A stretch of 33,093 nucleotides of DNA. Origin: Bacteroidota bacterium (lineage in GTDB: Bacteria > Bacteroidota > Bacteroidia > Bacteroidales > B39-G9). The stretch lies in the NCBI GenBank assembly GCA_015222055.1, contig JADFUR010000105.1, positions 1-33,093 of the forward strand, given 5' to 3'. Below the pieces are notes generated by a model. That model made no database searches and was not told the origin of the DNA. It was given only the letters and a program-made list of their open reading frames with translations. Made by a program: the position numbers and the translations under genes. Below, piece after piece: positions 14,703-18,564 of this stretch (position 1 is the first letter of the stretch; every line of letters starts with the position of its first letter).

Positions 14703-15890
14703 TTAAATAATTTTTAATTCTTTACCAACTTTAATAAAAGCAGCAACTGCTTTGTCAACATCTTCTTTACTGTGAGCTGCCGATAGCTGAACTCTAATAC
14801 GTGCTTTTTCTTTTGGAACAACAGGATAAACAAAACCTATAACATAAACACCTTCTTGGAGTAACTCGTTTGCAAATTTTACTGCTAGTGGTGCATCATA
14901 AATCATAACAGGAACAATAGCTGTATCGCCTTTAACAAGATCAAATCCGGCAGTGTCCATCTTTTCTCTGAAATACTTTGCATTTTCCATTGTTTTGTCT
15001 CTCAATTCATGAGACTCTTCTAACATATCAATAACTTTTATAGTAGCACCAACAATTGCAGGAGCCAAAGTGTTAGAAAATAAATATGGACGTGAACGCT
15101 GACGTAACATTTCAATAATTTCTTTTCGTCCAGATGTGCAACCACCATTTGCTCCACCCATAGCTTTACCAAAGGTAGTTGTTATAATATCTATTTTTCC
15201 CAGTACACCGCAATGCTCAGCAGTTCCTCTTCCTGTTGCACCAATATATCCGGATGCATGAGAATCGTCTACCAGAACTAATGCATCATATTTTTCTGCC
15301 AAATCACAAATTCCTTTTAAATTAGCAATATCACCATCCATTGAAAAAACACCATCGGTAGCAATAAGCCTATATTTTGCGTCTTTTGCGTCTTGTAAAC
15401 ATTTCTCCAACTCTTCCATGTTAGAATGTTTATATCTGAAACGTTGTGCTTTACATAATCTAACACCATCAATAATTGAAGCATGGTTTAACTCGTCAGA
15501 AATCAAAGCACTATCCTTACCAAGAAGCGGTTCAAAAACACCACCATTAGCGTCGAAACATGCGGCATAAAGAATTGTATCTTCTGTTCCTAAAAATTTC
15601 GAAACTCTTTCTTCCAAATCTTTATGTATTTGCTGTGTTCCGCAAATAAACCTAACAGATGAAAGGCCATAGCCCCATTTTTCCATTGTTTCTGATGCAG
15701 CCTTAGCTACCTCTTTATTGTCTGCTAATCCTAAATAATTGTTAGCACAAAAATTTAACACATTTTCTCCTGTAGACACCTTAATGTTTGCACTTTGAGG
15801 AGTTGTGATAATTCTCTCTTCTTTATAAAGACCTTGTTCTTTAAGTTCTTTAAAAGTCTCTTGAAGATCTTGTTTTATTTTTCCAAACAT
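14703..15890 (-). CDS. kbl: Glycine C-acetyltransferase (2-amino-3-ketobutyrate CoA ligase)
   Basis: 395 residues, the usual length. A PLP enzyme of the alpha-oxoamine synthase family that cleaves 2-amino-3-ketobutyrate with CoA to glycine and acetyl-CoA. Visible family features are [13 protein letters not shown] (46-58), [16 protein letters not shown] (78-93), the PLP-ring Asp/His segment [11 protein letters not shown] (207-217) and the PLP lysine in [13 protein letters not shown] (Lys242). Related 8-amino-7-oxononanoate synthases share the fold, but the [12 protein letters not shown] wording and the divergent threonine dehydrogenase gene 206 bases away identify Kbl. The pair forms the threonine-to-glycine route. 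A strong terminator follows the gene. Confidence 0.95.
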
Positions 15891-16096: not shown

Positions 16097-17035
16097 ATGA
16101 AAAACATTTTAATTATAGGTGCCGGAGGTCAAATAGGCTCTGAACTAACCACCGAACTTCGCAAAAGATATGGAAACGACAATGTAATAGCTGCCGACTT
16201 AGCAAATTCAGACAAGTTTGTGCATATTGATGTTACAAAATATGAAGATATTAAAGCTGCAGTAAAAAAATATAAAATTGATACAATTTACAATCTTGCT
16301 GCAATTTTATCTGCTGTAGCTGAAATGAAACCTCAATTAGCATGGAATGTTGGTGTATCTGGTCTTGTAAATGTACTTGAAGTTGCCCGCGAATATCATT
16401 GCTCTGTTTTTACTCCAAGTTCAATTGGTGCTTTTGGCAAATCAACACCACCCGACAACACCCCTCAAGACACCATTCAGCGCCCTTCAACAATGTATGG
16501 TGTTACAAAAGTAACTGGTGAGCTTTTAAGCGATTACTATCATACCCGTTTTGGTGTTGACACTAGAAGCGTAAGATTTCCTGGTATTATTTCAAATGTA
16601 ACTCTTCCGGGTGGCGGAACAACCGATTACGCTGTTGAAATTTATTATGAAGCAATAAAAAATAAAAAATTTACTTGCCCTATTGCTAAAGGGACTTTCC
16701 TTGACATGATGTATATGCCTGACGCACTAAATGCTGCTATTGCTGTAATGGAAGCCGATTCTGCTTCTCTTAAACATCGCAATTCTTTCAATGTTACATC
16801 AATGAGTTTCGACCCTGAAATTCTTGCTAATGCAATTAAAAAAGAAATTCCTGAGTTTGTAATGAATTATGATGTTGAGCCAATAAAACAAGCAATTGCC
16901 GAATCTTGGCCAAACAAAATGGACGACTCTTGTGCCAGAGAAGAATGGGATTGGAAACCTACCTTCAACCTTGAATCAATGACTAAAGATATGCTGAAAG
17001 TAATTGCTGAAAAAAATGAAAAAGGATTGATTTAA
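16097..17035 (+). CDS. tdh: L-threonine 3-dehydrogenase, short-chain (epimerase-like) type
   Basis: 312 residues; oxidises L-threonine to 2-amino-3-ketobutyrate with NAD. The N-terminal Rossmann motif is IIGAGGQIGSEL (6-17), followed by NLAAILSAVAE (66-76), TPSSIGAFG (106-114) and the catalytic Tyr134/Lys138 pair in MYGVTK. This is the extended short-chain dehydrogenase form known from Bacteroidota and trypanosomatids, not the zinc-dependent alcohol-dehydrogenase type of E. coli. RSVRFPGIISNVTLPGGGTTDYAV (written in part: RFPGII, GGGTTDYAVEIYYEA) and the C-terminal DWKPTFNLESM are typical. It is divergent from kbl, which takes its product, so the pair degrades threonine to glycine and acetyl-CoA. 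Confidence 0.93.
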   Translation: MKNILIIGAGGQIGSELTTELRKRYGNDNVIAADLANSDKFVHIDVTKYEDIKAAVKKYKIDTIYNLAAILSAVAEMKPQLAWNVGVSGLVNVLEVAREYHCSVFTPSSIGAFGKSTPPDNTPQDTIQRPSTMYGVTKVTGELLSDYYHTRFGVDTRSVRFPGIISNVTLPGGGTTDYAVEIYYEAIKNKKFTCPIAKGTFLDMMYMPDALNAAIAVMEADSASLKHRNSFNVTSMSFDPEILANAIKKEIPEFVMNYDVEPIKQAIAESWPNKMDDSCAREEWDWKPTFNLESMTKDMLKVIAEKNEKGLI

Positions 17036-17056: not shown

Positions 17057-17100
17057 AGCTGTCTTTATAAATTATTTTATATATAAAGACAGCTTTTTTT
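17057..17100 (+). terminator. Strong intrinsic terminator of tdh
   Basis: AGCTGTCTTTATA (17057-17069) and TATAAAGACAGCT (17082-17094) form a perfect 13-bp stem with a 12-base loop, followed by seven T up to 17100. The last T residues are also the start of the metK -33 element, so the terminator and the next promoter share bases. Confidence 0.9.
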
Positions 17101-17129
17101 GCAATAAATATAAATTAATTATATTTTTG
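17098..17129 (+). promoter_or_regulatory. Bacteroidota-type promoter for metK
   Basis: TTTG (17098-17101), a 20-base spacer and TATTTTTG (17122-17129) match the phylum's consensus exactly. Transcription would start a few bases downstream, around 17134-17137, so the mRNA would begin almost at the first stem of the predicted SAM-II aptamer, leaving a leader of about 125 bases before the metK ATG. Confidence 0.8.
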
Positions 17130-17140
17130 TTACGATAAAA

Positions 17141-17192
17141 AGTGGAAAGATTTGATTGATTGCAACCACACAAAAAAAATGCTAAAAAAACA
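17141..17192 (+). promoter_or_regulatory. Probable SAM-II riboswitch in the metK leader
   Basis: The layout matches the SAM-II (SAM_alpha/metA) aptamer. A P1 stem GTGG (17142-17145) pairs with CCAC (17166-17169). Loop 1 holds GATTTGATTGATTGCA, including the conserved GATTT and TTGC (17160-17163). An A-rich loop 3 is followed by GCTAAAAAA (17181-17189). TTGC can pair with GCTAA leaving the U bulged, the pseudoknot arrangement that binds S-adenosylmethionine in known structures. The gene downstream makes SAM, so product feedback is expected. P2a is weak (mainly A-U), and the element ends about 67 bases before the ATG, further than typical translation-controlling SAM-II elements. AAGATT (17147-17152) is complementary to AATCTT (17204-17209), a possible competing fold. 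Confidence 0.75.
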
Positions 17193-17259
17193 TTTTTGAA
17201 TACAATCTTCACATCCTTCCCATAATTAAAAACAACTTGATAATTTAAAACTTAATTTT

Positions 17260-18564
17260 ATGGGATATTTATTTACATCCGAGTCTGTATCTGAGGGACA
17301 TCCGGATAAAGTAGCAGATCAAATTTCTGATGCTCTTTTAGACGAATTTTTACGTCACGACCCAGAATCAAAAGTAGCTTGTGAAACACTTGTTACAACA
17401 GGCTTGGTATTTCTTGCCGGCGAAGTCAAAACAAGGGCTTATATTGATGTTCAAAAAATTGCTCGCCAAGTAATTAAAGAAATTGGCTACACAAAATCAG
17501 ATTATAAATTTGACAGTGAATCTTGTGCAGTAATCTCCTCAATACACGGTCAATCACCAGATATTAATCAGGGAGTTGTTCGCGAAACAGAAGAAAATCA
17601 AGGTGCCGGCGATCAGGGAATGATGTTTGGTTATGCTTGTAAAGAAACAGACTTTTATTTACCTCTTCCTATTGAGTTAGCTCATAATGTATTAGAAGAG
17701 TTGTCAAATATCAGAAGAGAAGGCAAAGTTATGAAATATCTTCGCCCCGATTCAAAATCTCAAATTACTATTGAATACGATGATAACAATCATCCTAAAA
17801 AAATTGATACAATTGTTGTTTCAACCCAGCACGATGATTTTTGTAAACCTTCTGATGATTCAAAAAAAGCACAATTAGAGGCTGATAAAAAAATGCAGGA
17901 TACAATAAAATCAGATATCGAAAAATATTTGATTCCTCGCGTTAAAAAAATAATTCCTTCAAGAGTTGAGAAACTATTTAACCAAAATTTCAAATTATTA
18001 GTAAATCCAACAGGAAAATTTGTTGTTGGAGGACCTCATGGAGATACCGGCTTAACAGGAAGAAAAATTATTGTTGATACTTATGGTGGAAGAGGAGCTC
18101 ACGGAGGTGGTGCTTTTTCAGGAAAAGATTCTTCAAAAGTTGATCGCTCTGCTGCTTATGCCGCACGTCACATTGCAAAAAACATGGTTGCTGCAGGCAT
18201 TGCCGAAGAAGTTCTTGTTCAACTTGCTTATGCTATTGGTGTTGCAGAGCCAGTTGGTGTTTATGTAAATACCTATGGTACAGCAACAGTTAAAAACAAT
18301 GACGGCGAAATTATTTCTGACGGAAAAATTTCTGAAAAAATTAATAGTATTTTCGACTTAAGACCTAATGCTATTGTTAAACGCTTTGGTTTAAAAAATC
18401 CTATTTTCTTAGAAACAGCTTCGTGGGGACATGTAGGAAGAACTAACTATAAAAAAGAAGTTATTGTTTTCGAAAACGACAAAGAAATAAAAAAAGAAGT
18501 TGAGTTCTTTGCGTGGGAGAAATTAGATTATGTTGATAAAATAAAACAAGAATTTAACATTTAA
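17260..18564 (+). CDS. metK: S-adenosylmethionine synthetase
   Basis: 434 residues; makes SAM from methionine and ATP in the cytoplasm. The N-terminal signature [20 protein letters not shown] (about 7-26) carries the ATP- and methionine-site residues. The hexapeptide GAGDQG (about 117-122, [12 protein letters not shown]) and the P-loop-like GGGAFSGKD (about 282-290) are both present, followed by a long C-terminal domain ending [15 protein letters not shown]. It is ~50 residues longer than the E. coli enzyme, partly through an insertion at about 200-230, as in other Bacteroidota. It has its own promoter and a leader with a probable SAM-II riboswitch. A small membrane-protein gene follows 79 bases later and may share the transcript, since the next clear terminator is after that gene. 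Confidence 0.97.

Follow-up and report, generated by a model that had tools for sequence, protein, structure and literature searches.

The stretch of DNA analysed here, 33,093 nucleotides of a Bacteroidota genome (hereafter the window), contains a SAM-II aptamer ahead of metK, and the start codon of this gene lies some distance beyond the aptamer. This raises the question of how an aptamer so placed could act on the gene that follows it. We consider it probable that the element is a SAM-II riboswitch providing SAM feedback on the SAM synthetase, and that it acts, most likely on translation, through a relay of competing pairings.

An Rfam scan of the whole window returned a single match at gathering score, which covered positions 1–60 of the 60 in model RF01726 (E 2.8e-12; Table 1). 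An earlier note on this DNA had recognized the hallmarks of SAM-II by their GTGG/CCAC, GATTT, TTGC and GCTAAAAAA segments, and all of these were located as claimed, with GCTAAAAAA beginning at 17181. The covariance-model search that it had proposed for 17100–17260 gave a strong match, the family that reached its cut-off being RF01726 and not SAM_alpha (RF00521). The TTGC and GCTAA strands are presumably partners in the pseudoknot. The outermost pair of RF01726, one position beyond the P1 strands, is non-standard in the window, and the aptamer tail reads GCTAAAAAAACATTT. The aptamer of the window is a typical representative of an established class.

Table 1. Features of the metK leader in the window, with positions, strand and evidence
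Feature	Position	Strand	Evidence
Promoter -33 element TTTG	17098..17101	+	Sequence
Promoter -7 element TATTTTTG	17122..17129	+	Sequence; TAnnTTTG count across leaders
SAM-II aptamer (RF01726), full length	17136..17195	+	72.1 bits, gathering cut-off 44
P1 5' strand GTGG	17142..17145	+	Model alignment
5' strand of alternative (anti-aptamer) hairpin, the aptamer 5' half	17142..17162	+	Minimum-energy fold of leader, -12.5 kcal/mol
Pseudoknot strand TTGC	17160..17163	+	Sequence, model alignment
P1 3' strand CCAC	17166..17169	+	Model alignment
Pseudoknot 3' strand GCTAA	17181..17185	+	Sequence, model alignment
A opposite G17158, breaking first pair of second pseudoknot helix	17188..17188	+	171-leader comparison
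Anti-aptamer strand CAATCTTCACATCCTTCCC	17203..17221	+	Fold and cross-leader complementarity
Anti-start strand TCCCATAA	17218..17225	+	Overlaps anti-aptamer strand by 4 bases
Start-codon region TTATGGGA	17258..17265	+	Perfect complement of 17218–17225; contains ATG
metK, methionine adenosyltransferase	17260..18564	+	TIGR01034, 506.8 bits, cut-off 309.4

For comparison between genomes, 234 loci were collected, comprising 154 stretches around RF01726 matches (model-fetched) and, from named genomes, 80 loci found through metK. Of the 154 stretches, 100 were hand-picked among the matches listed, which favours high-scoring aptamers. The aptamer pattern was matched by 198 loci in all, 150 of them model-fetched and 48 from the metK set. 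Six of these were excluded, five for having no start parsed by motif (L085, L117, L201, L216 and L220) and L185 for having less than 30 nt before the ATG. In the remaining 192 leaders the metK start was parsed and lay 30 nt or more beyond the aptamer; removal of 21 near-duplicates left the 171 used below, of which 132 were model-fetched and 39 metK-fetched. Subsets of the 171 were used for accessibility (160 leaders), site overlap (145) and the 5-mer table (147), and a strict set was formed from 58 leaders sharing little sequence. A second match in one relative (L151 in G007; 32.7 bits, below cut-off) had no recognizable aptamer or metK.

The promoter and gene context proposed for the window were both recovered. 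TTTG and TATTTTTG were found with the expected 20 bases between them, an arrangement which we take to fit the Bacteroidota promoter consensus. TAnnTTTG occurred no more than 45 nt upstream of P1 in 143 of the 171 leaders, compared with 8.7 in shuffled sequence, and 60 of these 143 also had TTG 18–25 nt before the -7 element. The ATG at 17260 opens metK, as had been claimed, and lies downstream of the aptamer as described, the distance being 64 nt from the end of the RF01726 match rather than about 67. Across the 171 leaders, the median distance from GCTAAA to ATG was 76 nt. A metK start was parsed in 148 of the 150 model-fetched loci with an aptamer; the two others were metK by eye (L117) and the methionine synthase gene metH (L085).

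Upstream of metK are a kbl-type glycine C-acetyltransferase gene on the reverse strand (14703–15890) and, divergent from it, a forward-strand gene resembling NAD-dependent epimerases (16097–17035), for which no model exceeds its cut-off. Behind the latter gene, AGCTGTCTTTATA and TATAAAGACAGCT make up an inverted repeat accompanied by a T-run (17057–17100), and the TTTG of the metK promoter sits inside this T-run. A consensus terminator scan, which covers short loops only, did not list the repeat as a terminator.

The earlier note had held that loss of the TTGC and GCTAA segments in close relatives would speak against a SAM-II element. These segments were widely retained, since 150 of the 154 model-fetched stretches matched a pattern requiring TTGCAACC and GCTAAA. 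An exception was seen in L029, from a genome of the window's family (G005), which reads GATAAA instead of the GCTAAA shared by the 29 others among the first 30 loci, and still scores 60.3 bits. In the second pseudoknot helix, which we take to be formed by the loop strand and the tail after GCTAAA, at least three of the first four pairs form in 119 of the 171 leaders and two of the four in the window. At its first position (17158/17188 in the window) the pair is G-C in 137 leaders, G-U in 17 and non-standard in 17, including the window. The window copy might be supposed to have lost its SAM response through a C to A change that breaks this first G-C pair, given that the same-genus leader L002 retains the C and that only half of the first four pairs form. 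We consider such a loss very improbable, as the equivalent pair is also missing in the other leaders of the non-standard group, the aptamer score remains well above cut-off and the anti-aptamer and anti-start strands described below are intact. The mismatch by itself is no argument for lost function.

The genome containing the window has one RF01726 copy, and no SAM-I match was found in it at the threshold used. RF01726 was present in 38 of 60 relatives, in 266 of 393 genomes sampled from the order (263 above cut-off) and in 26 of 198 sampled from the phylum (24 above cut-off). The earlier note had called SAM-II best known from alphaproteobacterial met genes; its presence in Bacteroidetes had already been published. 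SAM-II in the Bacteroides group was reported in 2005, with Bacteroides thetaiotaomicron shown in a figure (PMC1273637), and 'SAM-II long loops', the Bacteroidetes and marine form with its own Rfam family RF01726, is listed in Table 1 of Weinberg 2010 (PMC2864571). The SAM-I riboswitch was observed in 17 relatives, nine of which also carry SAM-II (G004, G011, G012, G023, G025, G029, G038, G043 and G056); these genomes are multi-contig, so contamination may account for the co-occurrence. A 2007 survey encountered no species carrying both classes (PMC2258182).

Downstream of the aptamer, the minimum-energy fold of the window leader without coding sequence was a hairpin of 16 pairs (-12.5 kcal/mol) in which G17142, 17144–17147, 17149–17151, 17153–17155 and 17158–17162 pair with C17221, 17217–17220, 17213–17215, 17209–17211 and 17203–17207, respectively. 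This fold lies 1.7 sd below those of shuffled sequences (z -1.7), and 14 of 200 shuffles fold equally well. The hairpin occupies the 5' strands of both P1 and the pseudoknot and so would exclude both. A competing pairing that alters the mechanism had been anticipated in the earlier note, and this idea is borne out with cross-genome support, as described below, in a longer and different register from the one it gave. The proposed pairing of AAGATT (17147–17152) with AATCTT (17204–17209) is possible, and the minimum-energy fold instead uses 17142–17162 with 17203–17221.

The hybridization energy between each aptamer core and the strand downstream of it, taken from 9 nt past GCTAAA, was compared with that for the strands of all other leaders, with z obtained by permutation. 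Own strands gave -13.64 kcal/mol and swapped strands -11.22 kcal/mol (z about -13.6, 171 leaders). The value was unchanged when the strand was begun 15 nt past GCTAAA (z -13.6), and reversed or reverse-complemented downstream strands gave z of about -2.6. In the strict set, z was -6.4 and none of 5000 permutations reached it. In minimum-energy folds, 12 or more bases from the 5' half of the aptamer were paired downstream in 151 of the 171 leaders, against 76.4 for shuffled and 108.4 for swapped strands.

The same relationship was visible in short motifs. When the variable aptamer 5-mer of a leader was reverse-complemented, the resulting word was found downstream in that leader in 61 of 147 cases, compared with 125 of 1323 for the 5-mers of other leaders, and CAATC occurred downstream in 60 of the 106 leaders with an ATTGC aptamer versus 14 of the 65 with CTTGC. 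The corresponding excess of CAAGC was not significant (6 of 65 CTTGC-aptamer leaders versus 4 of 106, p 0.18), and the exact complement was found downstream in 7 % of the 30 GGCTG leaders and in none of the five GGCCG leaders. By part, co-variation was strong for GATTTG..TTGC (z -11.4) and weak for the P1 strand (z -2.9), which is the part overlapping the anti-start strand in the window, perhaps because there is little variation there. The aptamer 3' tail showed no overall pairing with the downstream strand (z 0.9), although by eye CTACTTTAG-like stretches were seen in L031, L032 and a few Flavobacteriia. RNAalifold on a MAFFT alignment of 11 leaders predicted only pairs within the aptamer, namely P1 and one short hairpin, and neither the anti-aptamer nor the anti-start helix. 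Taken across the leaders, the aptamer 5' half has a counterpart in the anti-aptamer strand, which varies together with it.

In one genome (G088) SAM-II occurs twice, ahead of metK (L094) and ahead of metH (L085). The latter gene was assigned by PRK09490 (1.9e-30 over 80 residues) and is a fragment, and thus falls under the whole-protein cut-off. The two copies are identical from P1 through ...CAATCATCAATCTCCC, while their flanks have diverged except for scattered matches and a shared upstream CTTTGC. The duplicated unit looks like aptamer plus anti-aptamer.

The position of the start codon bears on whether the pseudoknot itself could mask the ribosome site, which is the known mode of SAM-II in the Sargasso Sea RNA (PMC9373788). 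One leader, the excluded L185 from a Prevotellaceae MAG, would suit such plain masking, having an in-frame metK ATG immediately after GCTAAA with no linker. For the window and for the 171 leaders generally, this mode is hardly to be expected given the distances from aptamer to ATG reported above. Within the window, no Shine-Dalgarno site was seen in the tail of the aptamer or next to it, and the ATG follows 64 nt further on. Published accounts further describe Bacteroidetes as generally lacking Shine-Dalgarno sequences, with ribosomes that fail to recognize them (PMC3155529, PMC9976891), which also argues against masking of such a site.

Attenuation through an intrinsic terminator, frequent in proteobacterial SAM-II according to the surveys (PMC1273637, PMC2258182), is the least probable of the readings considered here. 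A hairpin with a T-run lies between aptamer and metK in L019, L130, L148 and L198, which are possibly transcriptional variants. These four of 171 leaders equal the chance expectation of 4.0, obtained by shuffling every second leader, and the consensus scan found no intrinsic terminator between aptamer and start codon in the window leader. The chance-level terminators, the lack of a visible ribosome site in the aptamer tail and the published statements on Shine-Dalgarno sequences in Bacteroidetes all favour masking of the start codon.

A candidate for such masking is present in the window, where TCCCATAA is perfectly complementary to TTATGGGA, with a pairing energy of -10.9 kcal/mol. Across the 171 leaders, the downstream strand was complementary to its own start region (-8 to +12) with z -6.2, compared with -1.7 when reversed, and to the -30 to -8 target with z -3.6. 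In a scan of targets, the signal peaked at -12 to +8 (z -5.8), followed by -5 to +15 (-4.9), 0 to +20 (-3.4), -20 to 0 (-2.9), +20 to +40 (-2.3) and +50 to +70 (+0.3), the reversed controls ranging from -0.5 to -2.2. Permutation only among leaders with identical first five coding bases gave z -4.4. The strict set gave z -3.2, or -2.4 under the same restriction, a value reached by 60 of 5000 permutations. The 78 leaders beginning ATGGG gave z -3.7 and the remaining 93 gave z -2.3. A matched difference is seen between L011, with CCCATAG and CTATGGG, and the window, with CCCATAA and TTATGGG. The aptamer 5' half itself showed no complementarity to the start region (z 0.7), so that direct pairing between them was rejected. 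The start-region signal is modest and weaker than the anti-aptamer signal. The analysis thus establishes the aptamer, the promoter and the metK context, together with the conservation of both complementarities across the leaders.

From these elements we infer the following relay, including SAM binding, the direction of the switch, the exclusiveness of the two helices and the effect on translation. In the absence of SAM, the anti-aptamer hairpin (17142–17162 with 17203–17221) would form first and hold the CCC of the anti-start strand, leaving the start codon open so that metK would be translated. With SAM bound, the aptamer would be locked as a pseudoknot and no longer hold 17203–17221, and the freed TCCCATAA would pair with TTATGGGA over the start codon. 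The proposed direction fits SAM repression of metK.

The energy models weakly back the start-masking step. On locking the aptamer, modelled start accessibility fell from 0.473 to 0.445 and was lower in 95 of 160 leaders (own versus shuffled, p 0.013). A folded-first model gave a fall from 0.550 to 0.445 that shuffled leaders equalled (p 0.32). When coding sequence is included in the fold of the window, the start helix leaves the anti-aptamer hairpin largely in place, and only the GGAA/UUCC end of this hairpin is given up. The anti-aptamer and anti-start sites overlapped in 107 of 145 leaders compared with 93–106 with swapped start regions, so that overlap leaves exclusiveness unsupported.

The same aptamer and anti-aptamer hairpin might instead end transcription, if the freed C-rich, G-poor strand served as a Rho loading site and SAM thereby led to Rho-dependent termination. 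The segment from aptamer to ATG contains more C than G in 157 of the 171 leaders, as a Rho site needs, compared with 81 of the 171 for sequence preceding the aptamer, and intrinsic terminators are no more frequent than chance. The C richness is also expected of a strand that pairs with ATGGGA and the G/A-rich strand of the aptamer, and Rho loading leaves the start-codon complementarity unexplained; we regard it as unlikely, though the strongest of the alternatives. An effect of SAM binding and the anti-aptamer hairpin mainly on mRNA decay has a precedent in Sinorhizobium, where SAM-II is described as altering mRNA stability (PMC9373788), and seems to us improbable here.

Masking of the start codon by the relayed strand, the preferred reading, has partial parallels in described systems. 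SAM-II long loops (RF01726; PMC2864571) shares the aptamer sequence and structure, the phylum Bacteroidetes and the assignment as a switch, but its main-text account gives no expression platform. The SAM-II or metA element of Corbino 2005 (RF00521; PMC1273637) shares P1 and the pseudoknot, a promoter a few bases upstream and methionine/SAM genes, with B. thetaiotaomicron included; many representatives are described there with putative intrinsic terminators, whereas the metK leaders have them only at chance level. The SAM-II of Sinorhizobium metA, as described in PMC9373788, likewise acts on translation with the start codon about 70 nt away, but controls a Shine-Dalgarno sequence inside the riboswitch, whereas the element here is a second strand that complements the start codon. 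Although SAM-II aptamers have been studied in depth, a search of openly licensed papers found no description of a Bacteroidota SAM-II expression platform. The aptamer class itself is known, and the new part seems to lie downstream of it.

Whether one SAM-II platform is shared across the Bacteroidota, with a single downstream strand that has the aptamer 5' half and the start codon as alternative partners and so relays ligand binding to the AUG, is in our judgement evenly balanced. If true, this platform would be adapted to ribosomes that take no account of Shine-Dalgarno sequences. Through the conserved anti-aptamer/anti-start strand, the action of SAM-II in Bacteroidota can be tested directly. 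The strand also points to a rule that other riboswitches in this phylum might follow, in which the start codon rather than a ribosome site would be masked.
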